Shown here: positions 8,455-53,422 of the stretch, in pieces | How positions within the stretch are numbered: position 1 is the stretch's first letter | Layout of the letters: every line of letters starts with the position of its first letter | Origin: Mytilus galloprovincialis | Lineage: Eukaryota; Mollusca; Bivalvia; Mytilida; Mytilidae | Direction of reading: 5' to 3' | NCBI RefSeq assembly: GCF_965363235.1 | Contig: NC_134847.1 | Location: 73,352,268-73,416,267, forward strand | Length of the DNA: 64,000 nt | The notes under the pieces: model-generated | Told to the model about the DNA's origin: nothing | Databases searched by the model: none | Seen by the model: only the letters and a program-made list of their open reading frames with translations | Made by a program: the position numbers and the translations under genes

Positions 8455-11400
8455 TTAGATTCCCATGTTTTTCAGTTCTCTTCCTTCTTGACATGCTGCA
8501 CATGGACCACAACAACAAACAGTCATACAGTCGTTACACATGTCGCCCTACAATAATTATACATTATAATCATAATACTAATACTTGGGTTTGTTTTAAT
8601 CGAGTGAAATCATTTAAATTGATATTTTATAGTGTAATTTTTTATGTTGTATTGTTACACTATAGCTCTCTCAGCTTAGGGTGATTCTGGTGCATACTAA
8701 ACGTTTAAACCCAATGCATTGTTATGCTTCTTAACCAAACCAGGAGCCTGTTGTTGAGTGGATGCCGTTTTTTTGAGGTGGTTCCTAAATATTTTTTGGT
8801 TTTCTATTTTTACTAATGGATTAGACCTGTGGTTTTCCTGTTTGATATTTTTTACACTAGTTATTTCGGGACCCGTTATAGCGTGCTGTATGATTTAATC
8901 AAATGTTTTGTTCTAATATGTTGCATTTCTTTTCTTTGATTTTTTTTCTGTTTGATAATTTTTTATTGCAATATATTACACAAAATAAAAAAACTCTATG
9001 ATTTTCATCGTTCATGATTCAAAATGAAAGGGAACACAGATAAACATCAGCAGTTCTTACGGCAAACGAATTGTTTAAGGGAGCACAGGTAAACATCAGC
9101 AGTTCTTACGGCAAACGAATTGTTTAAGGGAGCACAGATAAACATCAGCAGTTCTTACGGCAAACGAATTGTTTAAGGGAGCACAGATAAACATCAGCAG
9201 TTCTTACGGCAAACGAATTGTTTAAGAAAGCAGGAGATAAACGGCTATGGTTTCAAATGTTGAGATTTGAATATTTGTACCATTCTAACCAGGTATGATG
9301 GTTTTACCGGATCCATTACCAATTTAACATGTAGCTGATACTTGTGCATGTAGAAAAAAAGCCCCTTAATTTCAGAAGAGAAACACTCTATCAAAGATGA
9401 AAAACACAGTGAGATTACCCGTATTCCAACCATTGTCCTTATTCTGGTCCTTATATTGATTTCTGCAGCAGGAGCACAACATGTAGTACAGCAGCATTCT
9501 CCAATACGTGACGCCAATGACGACACAGCACAACAGTAACAACACCAAGTAAACAAACCTGCAACACACATGTTTTGCTTATTAAATTTTTTTTTAACCA
9601 AGTCAGAGATTACTTTTGAGGATTTGGCACAAATTTTCGCAATGTTCGGTTTTAAAGGCTCTTTAATATTAAATTTGATTTAACTTCCATCCGATAGAAA
9701 AGAGTCTTATGTAGTCACAACTCACGTCTAGGTAACAAATTCTAAGATTGGTAAAAAAATTCACGAGTTATTTATCAAGTACTAGGATGATACAACTACT
9801 GGATGACGTTTTGTCGATGCCACTGCTGGTGGACGTTTCGTCCCCGAGGGTATCACCAGCCCAGTAGTCAATACTTCGGTGTTGACATGAATATCAATAA
9901 TGTGGTCATTTTTATAAATTTTCTGTTTACTAAACTTTGAATTTTTCGAAAAACTAAGGATTTTCTTATCCCAGGCATAGATTACCTTAGCCGTATTTGG
10001 AATAACTTTTTGGAATTTTGGATAAATGCTCTTCAACTTTGTACTTGTTTGGCTTTATAAATATTTTGATATGAGCGTCACTGATGAGTCTTGTGTAGAC
10101 GAAACGCGCGTCTGGCGTACTAAATTATAATCCTAGGACCTTTGATAACTATTTACACCACTGGGTCGATGCCACTGCTGGTGGACGTTTCGTTCCCAAG
10201 GGTAACACCAGCCCAGTAGTCAATACTTCGGTGTTGACATGAATATCAATAATGTGGTCATTTTTATAAATTTTCTGTTTACTAAACTTTGAATTTTTCG
10301 AAAAACTAAGGATTTTCTTATCCCAGGCATAGATTACCTTAGCCGTATTTGGAATAACTTTTGGGAATTTTGGATAAATGCTCTTCAACTTTGTACTTGT
10401 TTGGCTTTATAAATATTTTGATATGAGCGTCACTGATGAGTCTTGTGTAGACGAAACGCACGTCTGGCGTACTAAATTATAATCCTGGTACCTTTGATAA
10501 CTATTTACACCACTGGGTCGATGCCACTGCTGGTGGACGTTTCGTCCCCGAGGGTATCACCAGCCCAGTAGTCAATACTTCGGTGTTGACATGAATATCA
10601 ATAATGTGGTCATTTTTATAAATTTTCTGTTTACTAAACTTTGAATTTTTCGAAAAACTAAGGATTTTCTTATCCCAGGCATAGATTACCTTAGCCATAT
10701 TTGGCATAACTTTTTGGAATTTTGGATAAATGTTCTTCAACTTTGTACTTGTTTGGCTTTATAAATATTTTGATATGAGCGTCACTGACGAGTCTTGTGT
10801 AGACGAAATGCGCGTCTGGCGTACTAAATTATAATCCTGGTACCTTTGATAACTAGTAGACATGGAATATCATTGCTATGTTTAATTATTCAAAATACTA
10901 TTTTTTTCTACTCTTAGGCATATTTTGCCTGAGTCGTTTTTTGCACAACTTTCTGGAATATTTTAGTTTTGAACCTCTTCAATTTGAAATTCTTTCCAAC
11001 CGTTTTTGTTCTATTTTATGTCATTAAGATATATTTCTATTATGAATTTCCAAATACGTTGAACCATAAACGTCAAAATCCTTCAATCGCGTAGTGGAAT
11101 TAACTATTTGTGGATTCTTATAAATTATATATATAACTTTTGGACTATTTTCAATCTCGGTCTATTTCTGAAATTTATTCTTACATACTTTTGATTTTTC
11201 AACCCTATATGCTAACATTGCCTATGTAAATTTTAAAATTGTTTGTATGCACATTGAACGACAAATCTATGTGACGTATAAAATATTCTGACGTCAGACA
11301 CAAAAATCAATGAATTTGTTTGTAGATAGATGTTTTTGTGTTCTGTTAAATTGTTCCTTTTAAAATTGTTATACGATGTTGACTGATGTACCCATATTTT

Positions 11401-13339
11401 GACTATTTTATTTATTGTGTCTGTTTAGTTAACGCATCAATGTAAATATAACGGAATTTGATGAGACTGTCATCAAAGTGAGAGGGTTAGCGCTATAAAA
11501 CCAGGTTTAATCCACCATTTCTACATTTGAAAATGTCTGTACCAAGTCAGGAATATGACAGTTCTTATCCATTCGTTTTTGATGCGTTTTGTTATTTGAT
11601 TTTGCCATGTGATTATGGACTTTCCGCATTGATTTTCCTCTAAGTTCAGTATTTTTGTGATTTTACTTTTTTCAAATTGAGTGCAAATGATAAGTCTTTT
11701 GTAGGCGAAACACACATCTGGCAGAACAGATTATAAGCCTTGTTTGTCAAAATTTTGGGATTCTTATAACTCTAAACGTAATGTTTTAAAACAAATAATG
11801 ATATTGATTGGATAGCAGACCACAGCCATTAAACTACCTCTCCAATACCAAGCAAAACAAAATAAGGTTCTTCTCAACTTCGCTAGAAAGTCATAAAAAT
11901 ACAGACAACAATAGTATACTGCTGTTCAACAGACATAAATCGATTGAGAGAATACAAATATTGACAGTATATATCAAGGTTGATACGAAATTTTTCCATT
12001 AAGTTTCCCGTCGTTTTTTCTAATTACGAGACCTCCCGAATTAGACCATATTCGATATGTTTGTGTCTAAACTAACTAAACGAATTTTTCTCACATCTTA
12101 TATTCTAGTTTACAATCTACTTCGTCTGCTCTGCTAAGTTCCAATTGTGACTTATTCCCGAATATGACAGTTTTGTCGAGTGTGAATTCGCATTGTTAGA
12201 AGACAAGTCTCGGTATTTATACACCCATCATTCGTGTCCGATTTGTCATTCGTAAGTCTGTTTCGATATTGTATTATGTCTTATCGTTTTTGTTTGCATT
12301 TTATTTTTAATTTCTATGTGTATGTACAATTTACTATAATTAATCATTTTGTTCAGTAATAGGATTTTTAAAAACGATACGCATATGATTAACTTTTCAC
12401 ACAGTTATCATTTAGAAAAAAAATCGACATGACAGAAAGTTCAAATAAATACACATAGTTATATATCAATATTATTGGAATGTTTAGAAAACATATAAAT
12501 AACACCATAACAAACAAAAGCTCTTTCCAAATTTATCACTGACGTCACTTTTTGGTTGGGTTGATACATTGGTGTAACGCACAGTTCAAAATTCTATTGT
12601 GGTGCACTGTGTATGGAAGGTGGCCGCTGTTATTCTGTGGTTAACATGTTGTAATGTACTATTATATTATTTCTCTATGTATTTCTCTGTCCTGAACGTT
12701 TTTGTTTATTTGTACTGTATTCCTGTCACGTAATGTTATCGTTTTGGCAGTATGTCTAACATTTCCATATATTGGAGCTTTGGGTAGCCATAAAACCAGG
12801 TTCAACCCCCTTTGTTTTAAATTGTCCTTAACCAATATCAGGTTACACTCGGTTTTGGTTTGTTATCCTTATTTGTTTTCGCTTATTCGATCTATGATCA
12901 TAGAACACCGGTATACTACTGTTGCTTTCATCTACGTCTTGGTAATTTACTATATTATATGCTTTAGAGTTTAATGGTTTATCCCTTAAAAAGGTAAAAG
13001 GGATATAACTACAGAACCCAAATCCTTCAATTCAGTTTGCGTTTTGATTTACATTAAGTTAGTTTTCCGACGGGGGTACTAAATTAAATAATGTCTCTGT
13101 AGTAGCTCTAACAACTCTAACATTATACTATACTTACAATTTCCAATGTCAGAAAAACAGTCACACAAGCCGGTAGACCACTCTCTGCGACATTGAACGT
13201 CAACAAGAAGTAGGGGATTTTTCAGTTGTTGTGGTTGTGCGATGACAATAGTAGTTACTTGGTTTTGCATTGGTAATGGATTTCCAACTTGAGGATTGAA
13301 CTGGTTGTGTGGGTGGATTTGGTTATTTGCTGGATCCAT
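8455..13339 (-). CDS. PLAC8-family gene B (cornifelin-like), three coding exons
   Basis: The coding exons on the minus strand are 13138-13339, 9419-9558 and 8455-8547, giving 144 residues. Introns follow GT-AG and phases match: exon 1 ends one base into a Cys codon, exon 2 is 140 nt, and exon 3 starts with GDMCNDC and ends KNMGI before TAA. Residues 1-45 are Asn/Gln/Pro-rich, then come REWSTGLCDCFSDIGNC, a very Cys-rich block (WCCYCCAVSSLASRIGECCC), an Arg-rich turn (RTRIRTMVGIR) and CCCGPCAACQE. This is the normal PLAC8 layout. AATAAA directly follows the stop. The start exon has two more copies upstream (15595-15796, 18053-18254), so which copy is transcribed is open. Intron 1 carries the hammerhead retrozyme array on the opposite strand; intron 2 carries a 49-bp minisatellite. 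Confidence 0.87.
8548..9418. other. Intron 2 of gene B
   Basis: This intron lies between exons 3 and 2 of gene B. Apart from the minisatellite at 9030-9225 it is AT-rich and I see no gene or element in it. Confidence 0.7.
9030..9225. repeat. 49-bp minisatellite, four copies
   Basis: Four head-to-tail copies of a 49-bp unit start at 9030, 9079, 9128 and 9177 and differ by only a few bases. The unit contains 'aacatcagcagttcttacgg' and ends in 'cgaattgtttaa'. It sits in intron 2 of gene B, about 190 bp from exon 2. The copies are almost identical, so the number is likely to vary among individuals. Confidence 0.9.
10075..10118 (+). ncRNA. Hammerhead ribozyme, array unit 1
   Basis: Stem I is GCGUCA (10075-10080) with UGGCGU (10113-10118), six pairs including wobbles. 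Core CUGAUGA is followed by stem II GUC/GAC with a UUGUGUA loop, GAAA and mini stem III ACG-CG-CGU. Cleavage is predicted after GUC at 10112. All core residues are intact. Confidence 0.8.
10427..10470 (+). ncRNA. Hammerhead ribozyme, array unit 2
   Basis: It has the same fold as unit 1, exactly 352 bp downstream. The only difference near stem III is a cgcacg loop in place of cgcgcg, which keeps pairing. Predicted cleavage is after 10464, and the core is intact. Confidence 0.8.
10779..10822 (+). ncRNA. Hammerhead ribozyme, array unit 3 (variant core)
   Basis: It lies 352 bp after unit 2. The core reads CUGACGA, a change at the least constrained core position (U7), and stem III begins with a U-G wobble (gaaatgcgcgtc). 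It may be slower but is not clearly dead. Predicted cleavage is after 10816. Confidence 0.7.
10856..12695. other. Middle of intron 1 of gene B, repeats only
   Basis: No exon is seen. It holds an R3 copy (about 11465-11700, +) running into a decayed hammerhead (about 11679-11730), an R1 fragment (about 11850-11960, -), an R3-related segment (about 12120-12290), and the left part of another R1 copy that continues into the triplicated block. Confidence 0.55.
11465..11700 (+). repeat. Dispersed repeat family R3 (representative copy)
   Basis: The unit is marked by 'ccaagtcaggaatatgacag' and 'tcagtatttttgtgatttta'. Other copies: about 5045-5165 (-), 26090-26220 (+, partial), 38350-38480 (-), 42660-42905 (+), 49640-49735 (-) and 54370-54500 (-). 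The copies at 11465 and 42660 both run straight into hammerhead-bearing sequence, which may mean R3 and the retrozyme belong to one larger composite. Confidence 0.5.
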
Positions 13340-15152
13340 GACTAATAATAATTAACAATTGAACATTTCTCATTTTTTTTATACATTTCCTGTTTACAAA
13401 ACTTTAAAGTTTTCGAAAAACTAAAGATTTTCTTATCCCAGGCATTACCTAAGACGTATTTGGCAGTTTGGATCCTCAATGCTCTTCAACTTTATACTTG
13501 TTTGGCTTTACAAATATTTTGATATGAGCGTCACTGATGAGTCTTATGTAGACGAAACGCGCATCTGGCATACTTAATTATAATCCTGGTACCTTTGATA
13601 ACTATTTACACCACTGGGTCGATGCCACTGCTGGTGGACGTTACGTCCCCGAGAGTATCACCAGCCCAGGAGTCAACACTTCGGTGTTGACATGAATATC
13701 AATAATGTGGTCATTTTTATAAATTTTCTGTTTACAAAACTTTGAATTTTTTTTCGAAAAACTAAGGATTTTTTTTTTATCCCAGGCATAGATTACCTTA
13801 GACGTATTTGGCACAACCTTTCGGAATTTTGGATCTTCTATGCTCTTCAATTTTATATTTGTTTGGCTTTATTAATATTTTGATATGAACTTCAATGATG
13901 AGTGTTATGTAGACGAAACGCGCGTAAAGGCGTACTAAATTATAATCTTGGTACCTTTGATAACTATTTCGAAATATGTTAGAATATGAAAGTCATAGAT
14001 GAATTTTCTTTTTCTTCTAAATCACTTTTATTGTAAATTAGATTATAACTGTCTGCCAAAGATATATTGTTGATTGTATATGCATTCGTTCTTTTTTGTG
14101 CGTTTCTTTTGAGGATAGAAAGGCGTCTAGTTATCACAGATTTGGTTTTTAGCACTGTATAGAAAAAATCCATCTTTATCTTAAATGGATCCAGAAACTG
14201 ATCACTTATATTTGTACAACCCTACTGCAACGCCAATACGCACAGGAAATTGTTAAAAGTAATTCTTTAAGGTGGCTATTAAAAAATAATAGTTCACCAA
14301 GTGCATGCATTAAGGAAGTTCGCTGCTTAGTTTCAAAATTAATAGCTTTCCATAACACTAGTATATATTGATAGGGGATTAATTGAGGAATCAAAAAAGC
14401 AAAAAGAGTATAGGGGTCAATGTGCTTGTTTTCGAAATATTAGCCATTGAAATTGTGGCGGGAAAATGTTCTTTCTTGAATTTTTATAGCTTTATCATTG
14501 ACCGGTTAAAGTTCAGAAAAAAATTTATATTATATATGAAAAATAAATAAGATTTTATAAGACTTTATAAGATGTTATATTTGTTATTCTCATGGGATTT
14601 TGTCTGATGCTTGGTCCGTTTCTGTGTGTGTTACATTTTAGTGTTGTGTCGTTGTTCTCCTCTTATATTTAATGCGTTTCCCTCGGTTTTGGTTTGTTAC
14701 CCCGATTTTGTTTTTTGTCCATGTATTTATGAGTTTTGAACAGCGGTATACTACTGTTGCCTTTATTTATTTACAAATGGCTTATAATTATACATGTAAA
14801 AGATTTATAATAAGAAAAATGGGGGTCCATGGGCAAAATTTGTTCACGCATTCAAATGAATAAAACCAGAGAATTACGAAATTCTGACAAAATTTCCAAA
14901 TATAGGCACGAATGAACTTCTCCTTAAAATAAAAATTAAAGATAAAGATTGGGTGCGGCGGGGTTGAAACAATAGAACATATATTCTGGACCTGTCCATA
15001 TATGTTTAAACTATGGGAAGACCTTAACTCCTGGATATTTGAGAAGACAGAAATAGAACTAACTTTAAATATTGATTTGATTTTATTTGGTATTCTAACA
15101 AAAACAGTTAAAAATGATATAAGAAACTTAATACTTCTGTTAACAAAATTCT
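12696..15152. repeat. 2457-bp tandem unit, copy 1 of 3 (carries gene B start exon)
   Basis: The unit begins at 'acgtttttgttt' and ends inside a LINE tail at 'aacaaaattct'. Its content, left to right, is part of an R1 repeat, the gene B start exon (minus, 13138-13339), a retrozyme monomer flanked by hammerheads (13528 and about 13885), then a TTAA-flanked DNA element interrupted by an R1 copy and by the 5' part of a LINE tail. Copy 1 differs from copies 2 and 3 at a few single bases (for example atttccatat versus attaccatat, atgatcatag versus atgaccatag) and in poly-T lengths. Copies 2 and 3 agree with each other at those sites. Confidence 0.92.
13528..13571 (+). ncRNA. Hammerhead ribozyme in triplicated unit, copy 1
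   Basis: The core CUGAUGA, stem II GUC/GAC and GAAAC are intact, and stem I is GCGUCA/UGGCAU. The cleavage triplet is AUC rather than GUC, which still fits the NUH rule. Identical copies are at 15985-16028 and 18443-18486. A second, decayed hammerhead follows about 357 bp downstream (about 13885-13935), so one full retrozyme monomer is present per unit. Confidence 0.7.
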
Positions 15153-15594
15153 ACGTTTTTGTTTATTTGTACTGTATTCCTGTCACGTAATGTTATCGTT
15201 TTGGCAGTATGTCTAACATTACCATATATTGGAGCTTTGGGTAGCCATAAAACCAGGTTCAACCCCCTTTGTTTTAAATTGTCCTTAACCAATATCAGGT
15301 TACACTCGGTTTTGGTTTGTTATCCTTATTTGTTTTCGCTTATTCGATCTATGACCATAGAACACCGGTATACTACTGTTGCTTTCATCTACGTCTTGGT
15401 AATTTACTATATTATATGCTTTAGAGTTTAATGGTTTATCCCTTAAAAAGGTAAAAGGGATATAACTACAGAACCCAAATCCTTCAATTCAGTTTGCGTT
15501 TTGATTTACATTAAGTTAGTTTGCCGACGGGGGTACTAAATTAAATAATGTCTCTGTAGTAGCTCTAACAACTCTAACATTATACTATACTTAC

Positions 15595-15796
15595 AATTTC
15601 CAATGTCAGAAAAACAGTCACACAAGCCGGTAGACCACTCTCTGCGACATTGAACGTCAACAAGAAGTAGGGGATTTTTCAGTTGTTGTGGTTGTGCGAT
15701 GACAATAGTAGTTACTTGGTTTTGCATTGGTAATGGATTTCCAACTTGAGGATTGAACTGGTTGTGTGGGTGGATTTGGTTATTTGCTGGATCCAT
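15595..15796 (-). CDS. Gene B start exon, duplicate copy 2
   Basis: It encodes the same 67 residues as the 13138-13339 exon, with the same ATG, the same AG just before it (ttattattag then tc and ATG) and the same GTAAGT donor. No separate second or third exon lies between this copy and copy 1. It can therefore serve only as an alternative start exon for the exons at 9419-9558 and 8455-8547, or be unused. If spliced to another copy, the reading frame would continue, since tc + 202 nt is 204 nt. Confidence 0.75.
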
Positions 15797-15984
15797 GACT
15801 AATAATAATTAACAATTGAACATTTCTCATTTTTTTTATACATTTCCTGTTTACAAAACTTTAAAGTTTTCGAAAAACTAAAGATTTTCTTATCCCAGGC
15901 ATTACCTAAGACGTATTTGGCAGTTTGGATCCTCAATGCTCTTCAACTTTATACTTGTTTGGCTTTACAAATATTTTGATATGA

Positions 15985-16028
15985 GCGTCACTGATGAGTC
16001 TTATGTAGACGAAACGCGCATCTGGCAT
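15985..16028 (+). ncRNA. Hammerhead ribozyme in triplicated unit, copy 2
   Basis: Duplicate of the motif at 13528-13571, with intact core and AUC cleavage triplet. Confidence 0.65.
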
Positions 16029-18052
16029 ACTTAATTATAATCCTGGTACCTTTGATAACTATTTACACCACTGGGTCGATGCCACTGCTGGTGGACGTTA
16101 CGTCCCCGAGAGTATCACCAGCCCAGGAGTCAACACTTCGGTGTTGACATGAATATCAATAATGTGGTCATTTTTATAAATTTTCTGTTTACAAAACTTT
16201 GAATTTTTTTCGAAAAACTAAGGATTTTTTTTTTTTATCCCAGGCATAGATTACCTTAGACGTATTTGGCACAACCTTTCGGAATTTTGGATCTTCTATG
16301 CTCTTCAACTTTATATTTGTTTGGCTTTATTAATATTTTGATATGAACTTCAATGATGAGTGTTATGTAGACGAAACGCGCGTAAAGGCGTACTAAATTA
16401 TAATCTTGGTACCTTTGATAACTATTTCGAAATATGTTAGAATATGAAAGTCATAGATGAATTTTCTTTTTCTTCTAAATCACTTTTATTGTAAATTAGA
16501 TTATAACTGTCTGCCAAAGATATATTGTTGATTGTATATGCATTCGTTCTTTTTTGTGCGTTTCTTTTGAGGATAGAAAGGCGTCTAGTTATCACAGATT
16601 TGGTTTTTAGCACTGTATAGAAAAAATCCATCTTTATCTTAAATGGATCCAGAAACTGATCACTTATATTTGTACAACCCTACTGCAACGCCAATACGCA
16701 CAGGAAATTGTTAAAAGTAATTCTTTAAGGTGGCTATTAAAAAATAATAGTTCACCAAGTGCATGCATTAAGGAAGTTCGCTGCTTAGTTTCAAAATTAA
16801 TAGCTTTCCATAACACTAGTATATATTGATAGGGGATTAATTGAGGAATCAAAAAAGCAAAAAGAGTATAGGGGTCAATGTGCTTGTTTTCGAAATATTA
16901 GCCATTGAAATTGTGGCGGGAAAATGTTCTTTCTTGAATTTTTATAGCTTTATCATTGACCGGTTAAAGTTCAGAAAAAAATTTATATTATATATGAAAA
17001 ATAAATAAGATTTTATAAGACTTTATAAGATGTTATATTTGTTATTCTCATGGGATTTTGTCTGATGCTTGGTCCGTTTCTGTGTGTGTTACATTTTAGT
17101 GTTGTGTCGTTGTTCTCCTCTTATATTTAATGCGTTTCCCTCGGTTTTGGTTTGTTACCCCGATTTTGTTTTTTGTCCATGTATTTATGAGTTTTGAACA
17201 GCGGTATACTACTGTTGCCTTTATTTATTTACAAATGGCTTATAATTATACATGTAAAAGATTTATAATAAGAAAAATGGGGGTCCATGGGCAAAATTTG
17301 TTCACGCATTCAAATGAATAAAACCAGAGAATTACGAAATTCTGACAAAATTTCCAAATATAGGCACGAATGAACTTCTCCTTAAAATAAAAATTAAAGA
17401 TAAAGATTGGGTGCGGCGGGGTTGAAACAATAGAACATATATTCTGGACCTGTCCATATATGTTTAAACTATGGGAAGACCTTAACTCCTGGATATTTGA
17501 GAAGACAGAAATAGAACTAACTTTAAATATTGATTTGATTTTATTTGGTATTCTAACAAAAACAGTTAAAAATGATATAAGAAACTTAATACTTCTGTTA
17601 ACAAAATTCTACGTTTTTGTTTATTTGTACTGTATTCCTGTCACGTAATGTTATCGTTTTGGCAGTATGTCTAACATTACCATATATTGGAGCTTTGGGT
17701 AGCCATAAAACCAGGTTCAACCCCCTTTGTTTTAAATTGTCCTTAACCAATATCAGGTTACACTCGGTTTTGGTTTGTTATCCTTATTTGTTTTCGCTTA
17801 TTCGATCTATGACCATAGAACACCGGTATACTACTGTTGCTTTCATCTACGTCTTGGTAATTTACTATATTATATGCTTTAGAGTTTAATGGTTTATCCC
17901 TTAAAAAGGTAAAAGGGATATAACTACAGAACCCAAATCCTTCAATTCAGTTTGCGTTTTGATTTACATTAAGTTAGTTTGCCGACGGGGGTACTAAATT
18001 AAATAATGTCTCTGTAGTAGCTCTAACAACTCTAACATTATACTATACTTAC

Positions 18053-18254
18053 AATTTCCAATGTCAGAAAAACAGTCACACAAGCCGGTAGACCACTCTC
18101 TGCGACATTGAACGTCAACAAGAAGTAGGGGATTTTTCAGTTGTTGTGGTTGTGCGATGACAATAGTAGTTACTTGGTTTTGCATTGGTAATGGATTTCC
18201 AACTTGAGGATTGAACTGGTTGTGTGGGTGGATTTGGTTATTTGCTGGATCCAT
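18053..18254 (-). CDS. Gene B start exon, duplicate copy 3
   Basis: Identical in protein sequence to the other two copies, with intact ATG, upstream AG and GTAAGT donor. It is the farthest from the shared downstream exons (about 8.5 kb from exon 2). If the promoter and any 5'-UTR exon lie upstream of the block, this copy would be met first by the transcript. Confidence 0.75.
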
Positions 18255-18442
18255 GACTAATAATAATTAACAATTGAACATTTCTCATTTTTTTTATACA
18301 TTTCCTGTTTACAAAACTTTAAAGTTTTCGAAAAACTAAAGATTTTCTTATCCCAGGCATTACCTAAGACGTATTTGGCAGTTTGGATCCTCAATGCTCT
18401 TCAACTTTATACTTGTTTGGCTTTACAAATATTTTGATATGA

Positions 18443-18486
18443 GCGTCACTGATGAGTCTTATGTAGACGAAACGCGCATCTGGCAT
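18443..18486 (+). ncRNA. Hammerhead ribozyme in triplicated unit, copy 3
   Basis: Duplicate of the motif at 13528-13571, with intact core and AUC cleavage triplet. Confidence 0.65.
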
Positions 18487-19228
18487 ACTTAATTATAATC
18501 CTGGTACCTTTGATAACTATTTACACCACTGGGTCGATGCCACTGCTGGTGGACGTTACGTCCCCGAGAGTATCACCAGCCCAGGAGTCAACACTTCGGT
18601 GTTGACATGAATATCAATAATGTGGTCATTTTTATAAATTTTCTGTTTACAAAACTTTGAATTTTTTTCGAAAAACTAAGGATTTTTTTTTTTATCCCAG
18701 GCATAGATTACCTTAGACGTATTTGGCACAACCTTTCGGAATTTTGGATCTTCTATGCTCTTCAACTTTATATTTGTTTGGCTTTATTAATATTTTGATA
18801 TGAACTTCAATGATGAGTGTTATGTAGACGAAACGCGCGTAAAGGCGTACTAAATTATAATCTTGGTACCTTTGATAACTATTTCGAAATATGTTAGAAT
18901 ATGAAAGTCATAGATGAATTTTCTTTTTCTTCTAAATCACTTTTATTGTAAATTAGATTATAACTGTCTGCCAAAGATATATTGTTGATTGTATATGCAT
19001 TCGTTCTTTTTTGTGCGTTTCTTTTGAGGATAGAAAGGCGTCTAGTTATCACAGATTTGGTTTTTAGCACTGTATAGAAAAAATCCATCTTTATCTTAAA
19101 TGGATCCAGAAACTGATCACTTATATTTGTACAACCCTACTGCAACGCCAATACGCACAGGAAATTGTTAAAAGTAATTCTTTAAGGTGGCTATTAAAAA
19201 ATAATAGTTCACCAAGTGCATGCATTAA

Positions 19229-20684
19229 GGAAGTTCGCTGCTTAGTTTCAAAATTAATAGCTTTCCATAACACTAGTATATATTGATAGGGGATTAATTG
19301 AGGAATCAAAAAAGCAAAAAGAGTATAGGGGTCAATGTGCTTGTTTTCGAAATATTAGCCATTGAAATTGTGGCGGGAAAATGTTCTTTCTTGAATTTTT
19401 ATAGCTTTATCATTGACCGGTTAAAGTTCAGAAAAAAATTTATATTATATATGAAAAATAAATAAGATTTTATAAGACTTTATAAGATGTTATATTTGTT
19501 ATTCTCATGGGATTTTGTCTGATGCTTGGTCCGTTTCTGTGTGTGTTACATTTTAGTGTTGTGTCGTTGTTCTCCTCTTATATTTAATGCGTTTCCCTCG
19601 GTTTTGGTTTGTTACCCCGATTTTGTTTTTTGTCCATGTATTTATGAGTTTTGAACAGCGGTATACTACTGTTGCCTTTATTTATTTACAAATGGCTTAT
19701 AATTATACATGTAAAAGATTTATAATAAGAAAAATGGGGGTCCATGGGCAAAATTTGTTCACGCATTCAAATGAATAAAACCAGAGAATTACGAAATTCT
19801 GACAAAATTTCCAAATATAGGCACGAATGAACTTCTCCTTAAAATAAAAATTAAAGATAAAGATTGGGTGCGGCGGGGTTGAAACAATAGAACATATATT
19901 CTGGACCTGTCCATATATGTTTAAACTATGGGAAGACCTTAACTCCTGGATATTTGAGAAGACAGAAATAGAACTAACTTTAAATATTGATTTGATTTTA
20001 TTTGGTATTCTAACAAAAACAGTTAAAAATGATATAAGAAACTTAATACTTCTGTTAACAAAATTCTACATTTATAGAAGCAAACTATCTATGAAACAAA
20101 CCAATATAATAGCACTAAAAAAATATTTAAAAGAAAACTTATTAATAGAAAAAAAATAATTCTATAAAAATAAATTACTCAGTAGGGCAGAAAACTGCTA
20201 GAACCCCTGGACTCCTTTACTTTCATAAAAACAAAAAAAAAACCAAATAGACTCTACATATAATGTATATACATTTCATATCCAAACAGCCTATGTCTTA
20301 AACTCATTTTGTGCAATGTATCAAACAGCTGTGTCTATGACATATATTATATATCTTCTGTTTAGAGTATAAAACTATTATGCATACAAGTGTGTATAAC
20401 TCATTATGTTCATGTGTAAAAAAGAAAAAAAAATGAAATTTAATATAAAAAAAACTATATATATATACTTTTTCAAAACATGTGCATTTGTTATACTTGA
20501 TTATTATTGTAGTTAAATACTAACAAAAACTAACAACTGTATAAATATCTTTATTTACTAATATTAACGAGGCCGGGATAAGATACCGGTACTTGATGTT
20601 TTAAACTAACAAATGTACAGATTTCAATAAAATATGATAAATTTAAAAAAAAAAATAAATAAAAAACATGACATGCAAACATCC
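19229..20684. mobile_element. TTAA-flanked MITE interrupted by R1 repeat and LINE tail
   Basis: The left end 'ggaagttcgct' follows TTAA (19225-19228). The right end 'tgcaaacatcc' precedes TTAA (20685-20688). The ends are inverted repeats of about 11 bp. Comparison with the compact copy at 60122-60513 shows two later insertions: an R1 copy and, after 'ttccaaa' at 19815, the LINE tail. The left part recurs in copies 1 and 2 of the tandem unit from 14314 and about 16771. TTAA target sites are typical of piggyBac-type elements, but no transposase is present. Confidence 0.7.
19816..20665 (+). mobile_element. 5'-truncated LINE tail (non-LTR retrotransposon)
   Basis: This is the 3' end of a LINE. 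It contains the C-terminal zinc-finger-like signature of non-LTR reverse transcriptase proteins (ETIEHIFWTCPYMFKLW) and then about 70 further residues to a stop at 20159. A 3' UTR follows with aataaa near 20625 and a poly-A end at about 20640-20665. The upstream part is missing, as usual for LINE insertions. Its first part is repeated in the other two tandem units (from about 14901 and 17358). It sits exactly between the two halves of the TTAA element. Confidence 0.7.
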
Positions 20685-23600: not shown

Positions 23601-26410
23601 AATGCAACAAAACGTTTTTACTTAAAATATCTAAAAGACAGTTAAAGTAAAATATATCTATAAAAATATCTATAAAAAATGTGGTATGGATTCCACTGAG
23701 ACAATTCTCCATTCAAGTCACAATTTGTAAAAGTAAAACATTTAATGTCGAAATACGGCCTCCAACACAAATGCATGTCTTATAAATTGTGACTTGGATG
23801 GAGGGTTGTCTCATTGGCACCCATATTAGAATCAGGTGAGCGATACAGGCTCTTTAGAGCCTCTAGTTTATGTAAATTGGGCCGTTTTTTTCCTCGTTTG
23901 AACTGTTGTACACATATCATTTTGGGGATCTTTACAGCTTGCTGTTCGGTGTGAGCACATGCTCCGTGTTGAAGACTGCATTTGAAATTAAATGATTTTC
24001 TTCTACAAATTGTGACTTAGATGGAGACTTGACTCTTTTGCACTCATACCACATCTTCTTATATCCATTTACTGTCTGTCGTTTTCAGCTAGTGGCAACT
24101 TACCAACTATCTTAATTAAGGTGGATAATCGCTAAATGTTTCCTCTGACATAAATCGTTCATTTTGTAAAAATGAAAATTTCACCGTGCTTCTTTTCACC
24201 AAAATATTTAAAAACAAATCTGGGTTAACGTGCTGTATTTTCAAGCTAAACGTTTTGCAGAATTCACCATTTTTATAGATTATTCTTTAAAAAAATACTT
24301 TTTGTGAATAGAAGGAAATCTATCAGATATAACATCAAAATAAAATGTGAGAGATATGTTTCCCAGTATGCTTTTAGAAATTAAAAGAAAAAGTGGTGTC
24401 ACCTAACTTGTGTTCTTGATACAAGTAGAAAAATAAAAATTCATTCACATTTCTTTATAAAAATGTTACTATAAGAGTTGTCTTTTAGTATATTGCTAAG
24501 TTGCAATTTTTAACATAACAACTCTTATATTTGGTATTTGGAAAAACAATCTTTACATTATTCAATAAATCCCGTATTGTCTTATTTGAATAAACAGTTT
24601 TATATTTAAATTGCTATCTCAAATTTTGCAGATTTTAACGTAAAACTACACTGATGTGTATTTTTATTTTTGAAACAAGGATAGTGGTATACAGCTAATC
24701 TACCTAAAATTACCGACCATGCAAGAGCTGCATAGCCAGTCAAGTACGTTAAAATCGTTCATCATTATACCTGAAATTTACCGACCGTGCATGAGCTGTA
24801 CTACCAGTAAAGGTCGTAAAGCATTCCCATCATCATACCTGAACTCTATATCAACAGAAATTGATCTCAAATGTGTAATGCAACGTGCTCATTTAGGATA
24901 TTAAAAGTTTATAACGTTGTTCATTTTAGTTCATTGGTTCGATTATTCAAACACTTAGGTTTTCTATTCCCCTCCATAGATTGTCTTAACAGTATTTGGC
25001 ACAATGTTTTGGTCCTAGAAGCAACAATATTTACGCATAGCTGAATTACAAAAGAATAAGCTTTGTATTTTTGATGAGCTATTACAATAACTGTCGATGC
25101 CCAAGTAAAATTACTGGCCGAATGTTTCACCATCGCGTAAAAACTATGTACGATTATTATTTAAAATTGACTTTCAACTAGCTTTCAGTAATTGCACGTA
25201 CTCTTATATCGACAATTTGTGTTTCTTATTATACATTGAATGCTCGCAGATATCTTTAATCTCATAACATTCTGCATATGGCTATTTATAGTTAGGAGGC
25301 TGTAATTTACTTGTTTTCGTTAATCGTTGTATATCAATTTGCTTTCGTTTATTGTTTAATTCATCAACAAGGCCGCTAATTTTTCTCTTTTATATTGATT
25401 TATATCTTATTACATGGTGCCTTTTATAGCTTATAAACTGACTTCAATTTTGAATTAAAAAATATCTAAAGTTTTATATTGTGAAAATAATTGTATAACG
25501 TTCGAGGCTGCATGTTAATTACGTTAGCACGTCACTGGTTTTTAATATTCTGTAGTATTTGTCCGTGGTGGAATATGTTTGTTGTTGTCCTACAGGTTGC
25601 ATGTTGTGTCGACTTATATTTAATGTGTTTCCCTCGTTTGTTTTCTATCAATCGATTTATGACATTTGAACACCGATAAACTATTGTTTTTTTGGAATTT
25701 TGAATCCTAAATGCTCTTCAACTTTGTACTTATTTGGCGTTATAAATATTTTAATATGAGCGTCACTGATGAGTCTTATTTAGACGAAACACGCGTCTGG
25801 CGTACTAAATCATAATCCTGATACCTTTGATAACTATAAGTTGCCTTTATTTACTTAATCATTAATATCGGGAATATGTATATAAAAATGTTTTTACTGT
25901 ACTGTACATTGTATGTAATATCAGCTACAAAAACGTTTCTTGGTTGGCATCTTGTCAGGTTGATTTATATGTGTGTCTGAAGTCAGTTGTCTTTGTATAT
26001 ATACATTTCTTTTAGTTGCAGGATTTGAATTTTGTACAATTCTGTCTGTTTTTAATTTTGTCAATATAAGAAAACGATCAACAATTGTGTTTCGAGCTTT
26101 CGCCAGCTATAAAACCTGAAAATGTATATAACAAGTCAGAAATATAAAGGGGGTTTTCCATATTTTCTTTGGGCGGATATAGTGCAATATTTGATTTTGT
26201 CAGGAATTCGGTGTTTTGTAAATATTTTTTTGACAATTATAACAAATCTTATTTTATTTCAAATTGATCATTAGATAAAAAAAAACCTTAGCAAAAAATA
26301 CATCTATGTAGGTAAAGACTTAAATAATAAAGCAACAAATAAACGAGTTTAAATTTTTGAATGTAATACAATAGTATTCTGCTTAAAAAACAACACTTCT
26401 AAAACATTTC
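20689..26410. other. Intergenic stretch between genes B and C
   Basis: No coding exon is seen. Recognised pieces are R2 copies (about 21600-21755; fragments 23690-24065), an imperfect two-copy direct repeat of about 70 bp (about 24700-24845, marked by 'accgaccatgcaagagctg'), an R1 fragment (about 25550-25690), a retrozyme end with a hammerhead (25760-25803) and an R3 fragment (about 26090-26220). The rest is AT-rich and featureless. Any promoter or 5'-UTR exon of gene B should lie in this stretch or within the triplicated block. Confidence 0.5.
25760..25803 (+). ncRNA. Hammerhead ribozyme, solitary copy
   Basis: Stem I is GCGUCA/UGGCGU, with core CUGAUGA, stem II GUC/GAC, GAAA, stem III ACACGCGU and cleavage triplet GUC (predicted after 25797). 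All core residues are intact. It follows a short truncated retrozyme body. Confidence 0.75.
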
Positions 26411-30500: not shown

Positions 30501-30765
30501 AACCTCTCACTTGTATGAAAGAGGGACGAAAGATACCAGAGGGACAGTCAAACTCATAAATCGAAAATAAACTGACAATGCCATGGCTAAAAACGAAAAA
30601 GACAAGCAGACAAACAATAGCACACAGGAAACAACATATAAAACTAAAGAATAGGCAACACGAACGCCACCAAAAACTAGAGGTGATCACAGGTGCTCCG
30701 GAAGGGTAAGCAGATCCTGCTCCACATGTTGCACCCGCCGTGTTGCTTAGGTAGCAATAAACAGT
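30500..30765 (-). repeat. Dispersed repeat family R5 (representative copy)
   Basis: The repeat is recognised by 'gggacgaaagataccagagg' and the 'ggtaagcagatcctgctcca' block. Other copies: about 33050-33275 (+), 50195-50395 (+), and a copy split at about 60885-60915 and 61575-61760 by a reverse-transcriptase fossil. No coding potential. Confidence 0.55.
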
Positions 30766-31269
30766 ATTAAAATTTCCCCATCCCTTTTTCATTGCTTTCT
30801 TGCAATATTAAGCGTATTGTTTGTGTCATATATGTGCATATGTATGTAATCAGAATCTTCCATAGATTTTCTATCCAGTATATAAAATGGTAAAATATAA
30901 CTTCTTTTGGGTGTATCCATGGCAACAATCTGCATTCATTTGCTATAAAATATTGCAAAAAGGGGAAAATAGATGTCACATATTTCCCCAAAATTTGCAA
31001 AAGTAGAATTTCAATCGCTTGAAAAGAGGGACGAAAGATAGTACACATGACACCACATAGAAAACTAAAGAATACTTATTATGAAACTGTTTACATATAT
31101 CTTTCAATAATTCCAATGAAAACCATATGTCTTTCGTCTCATTTTTTTTTTTATATAATTGCGTCAAAAACGTCGTGTAGAAAAAAAGTGTTTATAAACA
31201 TTACATTAATTGCTGGACCAATGGCCGGTCTAGCTATGAAAAAACGGAGAGTCAAACAGAAAAATAGAC

Positions 31270-32150
31270 TAATTCGGTAGGTCACATTCATGAAAGGGAA
31301 GGGTATTGTAGTTACGACGTAAGGAACATATCCGATATCATTTGTGAAACGGTTATTCCATAACGGTCAACCAACTCGTGATGGTGTCCGTAACATTTAC
31401 GAAGGGATGATTTCAACTTCACCATTTGGAACTCTTGGTTTAATAGCTTCCTTGTGAAGAGCAATCCTCTATCAAGAAAATCATGATAGGAAATGCAAGC
31501 ACAGGAATATCGTCTTAATTGGGAGATATATATACCGTATGCAGGTGCTGCTGGTATATTTCTACTTAGAAATGGAAAGTTCACAATTGGAAAGCTGAAA
31601 TCATCTCTTTTGTCGTAGAGTTTTGTTTTCAACCGACCTTCATTGTCAATTTCTAGATGTTAGTCAAGATATGAGGCCGACTTAACTGTATCTGTATTAT
31701 CCTTTATCTCTAGTTCGATGGGATAGATGTATTCAACATAGTCACCAAATTTTGAATTATTTAGTGAAAGAACATCATCTTTATAGCGAAAAGTCGAGTT
31801 AAAGAATATTGCTAACTTCTTATCTTTCTTCCTAAGAAGTTCTTGCATGAAGTCAGCCTCATAATAATAAAGAAACAAGTAGACAAGAGGGACACAATTG
31901 GTTCCCATTGGAATATCGACAGTCTGTTGAAAAACACGTTCTCCGAACGTTACAAATATGTTGTCACTCAAGAAATCAAGCATCTTGATAATGTCAGTTT
32001 CAGAGATTTTTTTGTTTGAATCAGAGTGATCCTTTACAAAGTAGGATTTATCCCCCTTTAAGACAAGATACTTGTATCTACGTTGACCATTCTTTTTTAT
32101 GAAGCAAAGCAATACCAACTCTTTCAATTTGTCTTGAAAGACGCATTACA
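31270..32150 (-). mobile_element. Fossil reverse-transcriptase element, Penelope-like (tentative)
   Basis: This is a decayed remnant of a reverse-transcriptase element. Recognisable signatures include an IPMGTNC block and an FRYKDD catalytic-region block, followed by a downstream SFPIVNFPF block. These match a single-ORF reverse transcriptase family common in bivalves that I tentatively place with Penelope-type elements; it is not LTR-like as far as I can see. It is broken in several places and truncated at both ends, and so is old. Related fossils are at about 34740-36620, 44540-45000 and 61010-61560. Confidence 0.5.
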
Positions 32151-34739
32151 ATGTGTAAACAAAACAAACAGACATATAATAGGTAAAAATTACAAAAAAG
32201 GGGTACAGAAGTCCAAATTGTGTTATAATCTTAAATCATTATAAACACAACCAAATATGTCAAAAAAGAAAAACAAAATGTCATATAGGCAAGTATATGA
32301 ACAAAAATGAAAGACAATAATACAAATATAACCACCGCGAAAAAAAAACACACTATAACACATAAATAAGATGACAAACAACGTCAGTACCTAAAATTTA
32401 TACTTCAAGCCCATCATGTATTATTTGTGAAGTTGATACCGAATATTTTTCAACAAGGTCTTGGTACCTTATTGAAAAACTTTTTTAGACGGGAAAACTC
32501 ACAAAATAAAAAACTTACTTGTTCGCGAACTATTCGTCACAGTTTCTATGGATTTCTTATCAACTAATATCTTATATTCAAGTGACGATTATATAACATT
32601 GAATATTGATTATAAAGAAGGGAAATAATCAATTCTTTTGTATGTTTGTAAAATAATACTGAAGTACTTTGATTTAAACCAGATAAAAGTTATATGAATG
32701 AAGAAAATTTTCCGGATAATAAAAAAAAAAGAGCAGGACTGGCATTTACATTAAGTCTAATGCCTTTTTGGTCATATTGGTTCAGAATGTATAGCAAATT
32801 ACAATATATACTATATACTTGTTCTTTGTGTTTGATAAAGTAAGATTAAGCAAAAAAGTGATTAAACAGACGAAAATAACTTTTAAGTGGGTAAAACACT
32901 TAACAACTCAACCAGCGGTGATAGTTTTGCGTAGTTCGTTCACTTTACCCTTGTACGTAATAATATTATATATTTCAATGAAAGTAAGCTTTACATGAAT
33001 TTGACCTACCGAATAAGACTATTTACCGGATTTGTAATAACATAATCAACGCGACGGGTGCCACATGTGGAGAAGGATCTGCTTACTCTTCCAGAGCACC
33101 TGAAATCATCCCCAGTTTTTGATGGGGTTCGTGTTGCTTAGTCTTTAGTTTTCTATGTTTTTTCTTCTGTAATATTATTGGTCTGTTCGTCTTTTATTTT
33201 TAGCCATGGCGCTGTCAGTTTATTTTCAATCTATGAGTTTGACTCTCCCTCTGGTATCTTTCGTCCCTCCTAATTATCACTGATATATCATTATTTATTA
33301 CCACAAATTGCTTAAAACATTTACTAGTATTAAATTCTTTCATAGATACAAAGGTTTGGGTCTACCTGTCACATCATAACCATCTGTATGCAGCCCATAG
33401 TTTAGATATTAAGTGTAAACTTATCGATCCTTTACAAAAACTCATCGGATATTCATTTTCAATGTAATACAATTTTTTAATGGTGTTCTTATCGTTAAAG
33501 AAAAGGCTTTGTTATCAGATAAAAAGATTTCTCTAATTCTTCGTCAATTTATCCCTTTTTGCACCATTTGTATAAAATAATTTAATCAACGTGTGGTTCG
33601 TTTGATCTCAGTTCTTCATTGGTTAAAATCCGATTATGACGTCGACTTTTCTTGTTTTCCTCTGAGTTTCCTATTGTGACGGCATGAAAAAAGGCGACCA
33701 TGTCTGGTGACGTCACATAGAAAGAACACATCTTTTTGCAGATCAGTCGAAAAGAAGGAATAAGTTTCCCTGCGTTTTGTATGAAAATCATTAGAGAAAC
33801 AGATTCCACCACCAAATCTCGTGTAATACGATATTTATCCACTCTCGACAGTTAGATTTAAAATTTTTAAAACGCTCGGCGAGCCTCGCGTTTTAAATTT
33901 GAAAATGTAACTGTCTCGATTGGATAAATATCGTATCACACTCGATGCAGTGGTAGAATATATATATATATATATACATATATAATCGCCAAACAGCTAT
34001 CAACATTTACGGTCTTCTAACGATAGATGTAGTAGTGAATGCAAATACTCTCAGATATGTCCTTTGTGTCTCAAGTCAGTTTGTTTGTCGTGTGGATTAT
34101 TGTGTGTGCTTTGTCGAAAGGATGTGTCAAGCTTTCGGTGATATCTGATGCTTTTGTGCCAATGTTCCAGACAAAAGGTCTGTTTAAGTGCCTGTAAACA
34201 TTTTAAATCCCGCTACAATCAGTGGTTTTTATTTGTTGCTGTATATCATATTTGTTATTAGTATTGTTTGTACATGAATTAGGCCTAAAAGTTAAAGTTT
34301 TTTTCGTTTCAATTGTTTTACATATGTTGTTTTGGTACCTTTTAAGGCTTGGTGTTGTTCATTGTTGAAGGCCATACAGTGACAAATAGTTAGAAAGTTG
34401 CATTATTGGCAATCGTACCACATCGTATTTTTTTAAATTGAATTACATGGAATAATCACAATTTACTTTATATATGACAGAATGCAAATAACATGTTACG
34501 GTCAATGTGAAATCAATTTTGTTTTTAATCTATATTGATTTGAAATAAGTTTTCATGTTTGTTCTATCATTTACCTGCAGGTAATGGTAAAAACAACCTC
34601 ATATATTTTACTTTGTCATGATTTACCAAAGGTTTCATAAAATATATATATATATATATATCAGAAATTGTCCGAATTAAAACAGTGTGACTGTCAAAAT
34701 TGACTGATAGACCACATCATATCTTTCTTACTAAGATGG
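32151..34739. other. Gene-free stretch between two element fossils
   Basis: It contains the R5 copy at about 33050-33275, the foldback element 33806-33956, a TA microsatellite and an R2 copy (34240-34430). No coding exon is seen. Confidence 0.5.
33806..33956. mobile_element. Foldback-type MITE
   Basis: Two arms of about 49 bp are inverted copies of each other with some mismatches. The left arm holds 'tacgatatttatccactctc' and the right arm 'tggataaatatcgtatcaca'. They surround a short GC-richer centre (cgctcggcgagcctcgcg) that is itself partly self-complementary. No coding capacity. A TA microsatellite abuts the right end. Confidence 0.65.
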
Positions 34740-38156: not shown

Positions 38157-41147
38157 TCACTTGATACCCATATTTGTAAGTTCTCTATGATCCTGGCATG
38201 TGGAACAAGGACCACAAAATGTAGCTGTTACGCAATCTGTGCACATGGTTCCCTATAATATGACATAACACATAAAAAATAAAGTAGTTTAAAAGTCAGT
38301 CATCAAGGATAACGCAGTAAGCGTATATTACTGTTAATTGTAATCTTATATAAAAAATAAAAATCACAAAAATACTGAACTCAGAGGAAAATCAATTTGA
38401 AAAGTCCATAATCACATGGCAAAATCAAAAAACAAAACGCATCAAAAACGAATGGACAAGAACTGTCCATACTTATATAACATACTTACTGTAATGCTTT
38501 CGTTGAAAAGGGATGTAATATGCAGTATCAATTTTTGCTCATTATTGAAGGCTGTACGGTGACACATAGTTGTTGACTTCTATGTCATTTGGTCGCTGGT
38601 GAAGAGTTGTCTCATTGAGACAATCATACCACACCTTCTAATTTTTATATTGTTGAGATTAGTCCTGTTATAATTACAATGGATAACGGTTGAGAGTCTA
38701 CACGAATTGGTAATAATACACCTCTAGACAAAACATTGTTTACTCTTCATGATTCATGACTGTACTTTATAACACTTAGACGCTTATACTAATATGTAAC
38801 ATGCATACCTGCCAACTGTCACTATTTGCGGGGGATTTCCCCCATGGAGGCTCCCAAATTGAAATTTTTAAAGAGCAATTATGTCCACAATTTTAACAAA
38901 ACAATTAATTTTACAATGAACTGAGGCTTATAAAAGTATGAAGAAGCCAAAAAACAACATTACACTGTATTTGAAGGCCTCCTTGAAGGTTTTTTGGGAG
39001 TATGGCAGCCATCTTGCACGCAAAACCCCCATGGGCATTTTGAAAACTTGGCAGGTATGAACATGAAGACTCAACAATAGATAAATGATACAATAAAAAC
39101 AAAATAAACAGGAAAGTTAACACAGCATTTAAAGGTACGAAGATGTTATTCATCTTCGGTTATAAACTGTAAAATATTTAATATTTCATTCAGCAACTGT
39201 GTTTTGTTTTAAATCTGAGTTAAACCGCTGAATTAGGATTAACCAAGATAAATTATTTCTATTGTTTTGGCCATGTGATTCTGTATAAGGTTGAATAATT
39301 GCTGTTTGATTAAGATTCATTGTCTATTTCAGGAACAATAAATGTTCGTTCTAATCCAATAAAATTGTAATCGTTTTTTAACTATTTTTGAGAAATATGT
39401 CTTTAGTAATACAGTTGTTGGTAAAGCTAGTTCGAAAATAGATTCAAATAATCATCTACTCGACTCTATCAATATTATTCGATTTAGTGGGGGTATTTTT
39501 AAATTCCATATAAAGCTTTGCTTACTTACCCTAATTCCACCAACGGTTCTTATTTTGTTTCGAATAGTGATATTACTGGCAGGAACGCACATTGGCATGC
39601 AGAAATGTTCTCCCAATCTGGACCCGAGGTAGCACAAAGAACAAGGATGACACATGCATGTTAGCAAACCTGGAATATACAAGTTTAGGAAAATGGTGCA
39701 TCTTCAGTGTTACTATTTCCTGTAATATTCCAAACCAACATAATACTTCAAAAATTTAAAAATAAGTTATAATGGTAATGTTAACATATCTTTATTGCAT
39801 TATCCATTGAGAGAATAAAAATTAAGTCATTGAGTACATTATTTTTGGAGGATAATAAAGTATTATCTTTATCTTCCCGTGAAAAATGGGAAAGAGATTT
39901 AAATATGCAGATTGAGGATTGGAATGCTATTTATTCCATGCCCTTCATTATAACCAGAAACTCTTTTTTGCAAAACTTTCAATTTAAGATTGTTCATAGG
40001 ATTCTACCATGTAATTCATTTTTATTGAAATGTAAATTAAAAGAAACTGAACTTTGTACTTTTTGTTCAGAATTTAAAGAAAATATTTTTCACATTTTTT
40101 GGGAATGTAATGTATCACAAAACTTCTGGCTATCCGTTATTGATTGGATTAAAAATTATGGCATTCTCCAGCCTTTCAGTGCAAAAGAAGTCGTGTTAGG
40201 TGTGTCTGAGGATTTTGTTAACAGTAAAACAGTTAACAATATTTTGTTGTTATTCAAATACTATGTATACAAATGTAGATGTAAGAACATATCCCCCACA
40301 AAATATGGTGGGGTAGAATATTTAAAATATTGGATTAATATAGAAAAATACTCTGTATGTTTCTTAACCCCTGTACAAAAAGTAAAAATGGATCAGAAAT
40401 GGCATATGTTAGAAGCAGCTTTTATTTAATTTATTTGATTAATTAACAAAATCTTTTTGTAATATTTATATATATATCTTATTATATCCATATGACTTAA
40501 TTGATTTATCAAGTATTACTTTATTTTTAAAATGTGTATCGAATACTGTAGTATGTAATTTCACATGTTTCATCATCAAAAATAAAATAATTACAAAAAA
40601 AAGTCATTGAGTAACTAAGGTTCTACTTACTCCGACAAAATTAAACATCCGGAGACTTGGCTATGATCTTAGTCTGCTTTTGGTCGAATAGCTACTGAAG
40701 TGTTTATGAAAATTGTTTTCAACACAATGAGTTTGTATAGAAAGGATCTTTTACGGTATCAAAGCTCAGATATGCTTACGATATTGAACTGGTCATTTGG
40801 TGTGGGATTTTTTCTTTCCTTTTTTGTTGTATTTTATTCTAATTTGGTTTTTGGATTTTAAATGAGTATGTTGAAGGACTTAAGCTAGTTTACTAACTCA
40901 GTTGAAATGAAGGCAAACATCCAAAAAATCTGTCAAATAAGACTTGTAATGACTTACATGTTGCTGGGTCAGCTAAACAGTCAAACAGTCCTGTAGTCCA
41001 ATCCCTGTGTCCTTCAAAAGATGTGACCATCAAAGGATTATTTTGAAGCTGTGGTTGATTGACCACTGGTTGGATGTATGGTGGTGGTTGGGTTGAACCA
41101 TAGTTTACCTCTGGATAAAGAGGTTTTTTTGTTTCATCAGTACTCAT
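38157..41147 (-). CDS. PLAC8-family gene D, three coding exons
   Basis: The exons are 40958-41147, 39530-39669 and 38157-38252, encoding 141 residues. The introns are GT-AG in the shared phases, and exon 2 is again 140 nt. The N-terminus is shorter than in B and C and contains PLYPEVNYGST and a PPPY motif at residues 21-24. PPxY motifs can bind WW domains, which is suggestive only. The PLAC8 core follows: RDWTTGLFDCLADPATC, TCMCHPCSLCYLGSRLGE, CVPASN, NKIRTVGGIR, then GTMCTDCVTATFCGPCSTCQ and a C-terminus at TNMGIK. It is closest to gene E. Intron 1 holds a LINE tail in antisense and intron 2 holds a 256-bp inverted-repeat element and R2/R3 copies. Confidence 0.9.
38804..39059. mobile_element. 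MITE in intron 2 of gene D
   Basis: A 256-bp element has 12-bp terminal inverted repeats, CATACCTGCCAA at 38804-38815 and TTGGCAGGTATG at 39048-39059. It is flanked by the direct repeat AACATG (38798-38803 and 39060-39065). Subterminal sequences are also complementary in part (gggggatttcccccatgg versus aaacccccatggg). It is non-coding. I do not assign the superfamily because the duplication length (6, possibly 8) is ambiguous. Confidence 0.75.
39837..40600 (+). mobile_element. 5'-truncated LINE tail with 13-bp target duplication
   Basis: An open frame runs through the first part, with its stop just before 40430. It encodes the C-terminal region of a non-LTR retrotransposon protein, including a zinc-finger-like pattern CTFCSEF...HIFWEC followed by an FW. 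A short 3' UTR ends in A-rich sequence at 40593-40600. The insertion is bounded by direct repeats aagtcattgagta at 39824-39836 and 40601-40613. The frame has no visible stop within about 195 codons, and the duplication is perfect, so the insertion looks recent. It is antisense in intron 1 of gene D and related to the LINE tail at 19816-20665. Confidence 0.88.
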
Positions 41148-47934: not shown

Positions 47935-47978
47935 ACGCCAGACGCGCGTTTCGTCTACATAAGACTCATCAGTGACGC
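47935..47978 (-). ncRNA. Hammerhead ribozyme upstream of gene E, intact core
   Basis: Stem I GCGUCA/UGGCGU, core CUGAUGA, stem II GUC-UUAUGUA-GAC, GAAA, stem III ACG-CG-CGU and GUC cleavage triplet all match the array consensus exactly. It is sense to gene E and about 380 bp upstream of its ATG, so it could lie in the 5' UTR or 5' intron of that gene. Confidence 0.8.
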
Positions 47979-53378: not shown

Positions 53379-53422
53379 GCGTCACTGATGAGTCTTTTAT
53401 CGACGAAACGCGCGTCTGGCGT
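53379..53422 (+). ncRNA. Hammerhead ribozyme, intact core
   Basis: Stem I is GCGUCA/UGGCGU, with core CUGAUGA, stem II GUC/GAC around a UUUUAUC loop, GAAA, stem III ACG-CG-CGU and GUC cleavage triplet. Cleavage is predicted after 53416. Downstream, a CTGATAA-type decayed partner lies at about 53733-53777, and a minus-strand remnant at about 53828-53880. Confidence 0.75.

Follow-up and report, generated by a model that had tools for sequence, protein, structure and literature searches.

A non-LTR retrozyme array of Mytilus galloprovincialis and a hairpin it has in common with a probable Penelope-like element

The array and its setting

The window, the whole 64,000-nt stretch of Mytilus galloprovincialis DNA that was analysed, carries a tandem hammerhead array on the plus strand at 9813-10855, next to a PLAC8-like exon on the minus strand at 9419-9558. 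The exon borders were set by eye from the sequence. When this exon (taken as about 9419-9558) was conceptually spliced to an exon ending near 13138, also on the minus strand, the product matched PF04749 with an E value of 1.4e-7 and 32.7 bits, just below the cut-off of 34.4, and the single exons searched separately gave no PLAC8 match. A sequence-only reading had placed the array antisense in a PLAC8 intron, and this agrees with its position between the two PLAC8-like exons on the opposite strand. A segment of about 2,457 bp is repeated three times in tandem at 12696-20073 with 99.7-99.8% identity; each copy holds a PLAC8-like first exon, giving three candidates for the first exon, and about 1.6 retrozyme units.

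Tandem Repeats Finder gave a period of 352, 3.0 copies and 97% matches for 9813-10855. The tandem 352-bp array proposed earlier for 9785-10855 was thus recovered except for its start, since unit similarity begins at 9813, 28 bp later. The array consists of a 300-bp 5'-truncated copy, two full 352-bp units and a 39-bp 3' piece. The full units differ from each other at 12 of 352 positions; compared with either one, the truncated first copy shows 5 differences over 300 positions. The GC content is 37.1% (36.9-37.2% across measurements), and no stop-to-stop frame of 100 aa is listed for the array. Inspection by eye gave one 5-nt candidate for a target duplication and none that was clear, and none is claimed.

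Three complete type I hammerheads, 352 bp apart, had been read from the letters of the array. In a 2.1-kb search, the Rfam Hammerhead_1 model (RF00163) matched all three junctions on the plus strand, at 10075-10118 (32.6 bits, E 1.1e-5), 10427-10470 (29.6 bits, E 9.9e-5) and 10779-10822 (30.8 bits, E 4.1e-5). The GUC motifs end exactly at 10112, 10464 and 10816, the positions after which cleavage is predicted. In this covariance-model check, which had been proposed along with that reading, the E value is at or below 1e-4 for all three, and all three lie 1.4-4.4 bits below the curated gathering score of 34. Because of these scores, Rfam run at default settings over the whole window reports no match. 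Of the 37 Hammerhead_1 matches listed for the rest of the genome, 29 pass the cut-off, with only the best candidates scored. The GUC ends bound two predicted unit-length RNAs of 352 nt, 10113-10464 and 10465-10816 (both plus), each flanked by two GUC sites and each as first proposed. Beyond the last cleavage site, a 3' tail at 10817-10855 (plus) stops at the usual 3' end of the family (TTTGATAACTA). Further Hammerhead_1 matches in the window, with 29.3-33 bits, come from other retrozyme insertions and lie at 47935-47978 (minus), 53379-53422 (plus), 57792-57835 (minus) and 25760-25803 (plus); one of these four, at 53.2-53.8 kb, belongs to a diverged retrozyme subfamily.

By eye, a box-like sequence, TATAAATA, is seen at 10408-10415 and at the equivalent places, about 12 bp upstream of the ribozyme in every unit. 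The retrozyme unit was also compared with the upstream stretches of one U6, four U2 and two U1 genes. The best 18-mers match the snRNA upstream stretches at 12-14 of 18 positions (raw counts), and we claim no common snRNA-type promoter element. The U6 snRNA genes are arranged in tandem, in a long run of at least 48 units of 717 bp at G000 C10:45081980-45120804, and the U1 genes and most U2 genes among the matches listed are also tandem.

Copies of the family and their usual 3' end

The window array is a non-LTR retrozyme of a kind known in this mussel. Its features are a type I hammerhead in each unit, a unit of 352 bp (within 150-450 bp), a GC content below 50%, a non-coding sequence and many dispersed copies. 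Cervera and de la Pena (2020, PMC7229834) describe about 5000 type I hammerheads in 350-390 bp repeats of M. galloprovincialis, with self-cleavage in vitro and abundant circular RNA on northern blots. The array resembles these non-LTR retrozymes in its type I hammerhead, tandem repeats of such a size, low GC and copies in the thousands (PMC7229834). The retrozyme reading of the array, with its hammerheads and 352-nt units, is thus in line with that account, to which it was matched by description and not by sequence identity; the consulted sections report neither a fixed 3' end nor a module shared with Penelope-like elements (PMC7229834). By analogy with the published kind, the window array itself would also release circles.

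We searched 1.385 Gb of genome for the ribozyme core and the tail of the family. The ribozyme core pattern CTGANGAGTC-N7-GACGAAACGCGCGTC gave 16,572 matches, compared with 0 for the reversed control, and the 26-nt tail with at most one mismatch gave 21,533 matches, again compared with 0 for the reversed control. In 52 of 55 tail matches a recognisable ribozyme lies just upstream, and the other 3 have a mutated one; these 55 come from loci around the first 30 places where the tail matches exactly, with overlapping loci counted twice.

We compared the array ends by BLAST in 91 distinct arrays from 90 retrieved loci (L001-L090) and the window stretch. The 3' end lies at unit position 36-50 in 60 of the 91, and at 39-46 in 57 of those, which puts the usual 3' end about 41 nt beyond the cleavage site. 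In the same 60 arrays, 5' ends fall throughout unit positions 1-322. The loci L061-L090 favour a fixed 3' end because they were retrieved by the tail itself. Among L001-L030, which were retrieved by the ribozyme model with no tail required, 25 of the 30 loci end at 33-49, and the other five matches (L005, L013, L020, L023 and L028) extend only as far as the ribozyme. For 31 arrays the BLAST match ends outside 36-50. Many of them are diverged relatives, with 67-86% identity and an early stop of the match; others, at 88-92% identity, remain unexplained. Of the 20 arrays in the window, 9 have their end at 39-45 (7 of 18 with the triplicated segment counted once), and the remaining 11 stop elsewhere, mostly at 304-352. 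Since the 3' end is mostly fixed about 41 nt beyond the cleavage site, the templates span that site. Ten arrays only 72-132 bp long include the cleavage site and were thus not copied from a linear monomer cut by the ribozyme.

T T follows the array end (46 and 47 of 57 arrays), and since T T is also the unit's own continuation, target and template are indistinguishable at these two positions. Metazoan non-LTR retrozymes, where they have target duplications, show ones longer than 4 bp. Flanking direct repeats of at least 5 nt (5-9 nt) were found in 11 of the 57 arrays compared with 3.35 in shuffles, and 0 of 300 shuffles reached 11; the sample was 58 arrays longer than 60 bp, from which one with no recognisable end was dropped. 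For 93 full units, the mean divergence is 1.9% within loci (152 pairs) and 5.6% between loci (4126 pairs), averages that do not come from independent arrays because a few retrieved loci overlap. Units of single loci differ by up to 11.7%.

A hairpin common to the retrozyme and a tandem reverse-transcriptase element

A reverse-transcriptase (RT) fragment in the window, at 31663-32145 on the minus strand, led us to a second family, here called the partner. The fragment is the RT part of a broken partner copy at 30515-32145 (minus), in which the end of the ORF and the 3' UTR follow as separate pieces; the copy stops at 30515, where the partner usually has its 3' end. A second piece of the partner 3' UTR at 32991-33282 (plus) ends near the hairpin position described below. 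Among the matches listed, the partner has open frames of up to 1024 aa, and among the 150 matches scored, RT matches lie 3345-3371 bp apart at six places, which marks tandem copies. One tandem junction is spanned by L101, in which, on the reverse strand, the upstream ORF runs to nt 369 and, after a gap of 370 nt, the next frame is open, from nt 740 on.

Penelope-like elements combine a reverse transcriptase and a GIY-YIG nuclease in a single ORF. The domain matches of the partner are weak. RVT_1 was matched in L100 with an E value of 1e-4 (22.5 bits, cut-off 29.6), and GIY-YIG was matched in a different copy, L101, with an E value of 0.026 (15.3 bits, cut-off 22.6). One clade of Penelope-like elements has an N-terminal GIY-YIG. 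Comparing the sequence with those of solved structures yielded no convincing match (best E 0.33). A hammerhead in the pseudo-LTR is reported to be common in Penelope-like elements, and none was found in the partner among matches to E 5 in L098-L101. The partner shows two Penelope-like traits, namely tandem or partly tandem copies with pseudo-LTRs, and a fixed genomic 3' end that precedes sequence continuing in the tandem copies. Taken together, the sub-threshold domain matches and the architecture suggest that this RT-coding tandem element is probably Penelope-like. The window also holds a zf-RVT ORF remnant at 39785-40429 (plus), with an E value of 1.4e-6 and a score above its cut-off, which is a fragment of another retroelement.

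The retrozyme and the partner have a hairpin in common. It is about 65 nt long and lies in each full retrozyme unit directly beyond the usual 3' end, with retrozyme copies ending about 7 nt before it. The reverse strand of L101 at nt 677-746 aligned with window positions 10509-10579 at 86% over 71 nt (85.9%, 80.6 bits), and the best of 300 shuffled L101 sequences reached 31.0 bits. The other hairpin modules of the array, also on the plus strand, are 81.7% identical to the partner over 71 nt (10157-10227) and, in the first truncated copy, 84.1% over 63 nt (9813-9875). Outside the hairpin, retrozyme and partner gave no convincing alignment, and the common part of their tails is a short GGTAYCTTT-like stretch.

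In the partner, the hairpin lies at the repeat/ORF junction. It is present in all six tandem junctions examined (L101-L106), of which L105 has lost the 3' half by deletion. Leaving out the tandem junction pieces, there are 15 distinct 3'-UTR matches for the dispersed partner copies. The match ends at nt 669-683 in 11 of the 15 and at 669-676 in ten of these 11, and the stretch shared with the retrozyme starts at nt 677. The other 4 of the 15 stop earlier. These results show that the two families share a hairpin and also an end point just 5' of it.

The hairpin is kept as a structure. From 59 distinct sequences, 35 passed an identity filter and 29 of these were aligned, one of them from the partner; 94.3% of the cells are paired, compared with 30-55% in slid versions, and 10 cells have changes on both sides, compared with 2.1 in shuffles. 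For a rival middle helix the share of paired cells is almost as high, at 92.9%. A 32-nt stretch of the partner-form hairpin, with at most one mismatch, gave 168 genome matches compared with 0 for the control. The partner-form hairpin also recurs with a spacing of about 112, 174 and 135 bp at G000 C7:85774071-85774438, C5:43628086-43628813 and C9:75596699-75597273, which may represent further small repeats that carry the hairpin. On its reverse strand, the retrozyme hairpin slightly resembles a hammerhead core, and a both-strand Rfam scan to E 10 lists no minus-strand hammerhead there.

A proposed route of movement

The array itself is of a known kind, and what seems new is how the retrozyme moves. 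The Anolis Penelope protein starts reverse transcription internally and requires RNA beyond the start; it favours ATT or AT-rich DNA, and the genomic tail reflects the internal start (Frangieh et al. 2024, PMC11167929). With the shared hairpin, the coinciding ends and this precedent, the simplest reading is that the partner protein copies the retrozyme as the Anolis Penelope protein copies its own RNA. We therefore consider it likely, with a probability of roughly 0.7 judged from genomic sequence, that the retrozyme is a non-autonomous element whose circle is reverse-transcribed by the Penelope-like partner protein via the common hairpin, from an internal start.

The proposed steps are as follows. 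A plus-strand transcript of the array would be cut by its hammerheads, and the 352-nt units would be closed into circles. The partner protein would recognise the hairpin of about 65 nt that both elements carry, and copying would start internally on a nicked AT-rich target, at a point that lies a few nt 5' of the hairpin and about 41 nt beyond the site of the earlier cleavage. Reverse transcription would then circle the template for a variable length, sometimes for several turns. Such rolling copying would fix the 3' end, let the 5' end vary from copy to copy and build tandem arrays whose units are alike. With the hairpin located 3' of the point where copying starts, no insertion would have the hairpin downstream of its own end, and only a circular or multi-unit template could supply it. 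This need would explain the tandem habit of both families, and the hammerhead would gain a purpose, since it would make the circle.

The rival that survives best keeps the same partner and the same start site and takes an uncut multi-unit transcript as the template, with the ribozyme dispensable for movement. We regard it as possible, though doubtful. A linear multimer leaves the same genomic ends as a circle, so the ends do not distinguish the two templates, and in vitro the ribozyme mutants of the Anolis element left insertion unchanged (PMC11167929). Against it, northern blots show mussel retrozyme RNA mainly as circles (PMC7229834), and the ribozyme core is kept in thousands of copies. Less probable still, and in our judgement unlikely, is that different machinery, for example that of a LINE, moves the retrozyme and that the hairpin was only inherited from Penelope-like sequence. 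The lack of a detected hammerhead in the partner (L098-L101), the largely different tails of the two families and the zf-RVT remnant in the window are consistent with this explanation. However, inheritance alone does not predict that separate insertions in both families should stop at equivalent points just ahead of the hairpin. Pattern searches that required some other sequence upstream of the tail or ribozyme gave 7, 8 and 176 matches, and the contexts of those checked (all 7, all 8 and 100 of the 176) were mostly single or retrozyme variants; the matches listed include no autonomous element in which a different repeated sequence leads into the exact tail or ribozyme. An ordinary tandem satellite, grown by unequal exchange or DNA circles with the hammerheads as passengers, would account for tandem, similar units and for the arrays with at least seven full units, and is very improbable given 21,533 tails and 16,572 cores in the genome and, among the loci examined, one usual 3' end, variable 5' ends and many arrays shorter than one unit.

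As to why the partner protein would copy retrozyme circles, we lean slightly towards a hijacking of the ribozyme-less Penelope-like element, in which a ribozyme brought by the parasite would stand in for the tandem transcript on which the host element depends. The circle would display the element's own hairpin, and the element's protein would start a few nt before it and run round the circle.

The proposed route has its closest likeness in Poseidon of Anolis carolinensis, which has an internal start 3' of the hammerhead, a genomic tail, AT-rich ATT targets and tandem repeats (PMC11167929). Unlike the retrozyme, Poseidon is autonomous, its main start lies 111-118 nt inside the ORF, and its hammerhead is active only with protein added (PMC11167929). 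The LTR retrozymes of plants also use hammerhead circles as retroelement intermediates, but they have type III hammerheads, LTRs, a PBS and a PPT, and their proposed helpers are Ty3-Gypsy elements (PMC7761336). For metazoan retrozymes, the same review states that no conserved motif points to the helper retrotransposon (PMC7761336). Among the papers listed on retrozymes, Penelope-like elements and Mytilus hammerheads, the titles and the opening lines of the abstracts announce no helper-revealing motif for animal retrozymes. For the hammerhead satellite DNA of newts, we know of no helper. This satellite resembles the retrozyme in its type I hammerhead within repeats of about 330 bp, and differs in coming from an amphibian (PMC7229834).

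If the proposed copying by the partner protein is true, the hairpin would be the first sequence tag linking an animal retrozyme to a helper. A structured module at the usual 3' end of both families would turn the open question of the helper into a defined in vitro test. A signal downstream of the copying start would also be a possible reason why Penelope-like elements and animal retrozymes occur in tandem.

The 5' ends show a cluster of their own. In 19 of the 60 arrays the start lies at unit positions 254-293, a stretch of 40 bp; the sample is biased and the cluster is unexplained, and it may reflect either a stop site of reverse transcription or the sampling bias.
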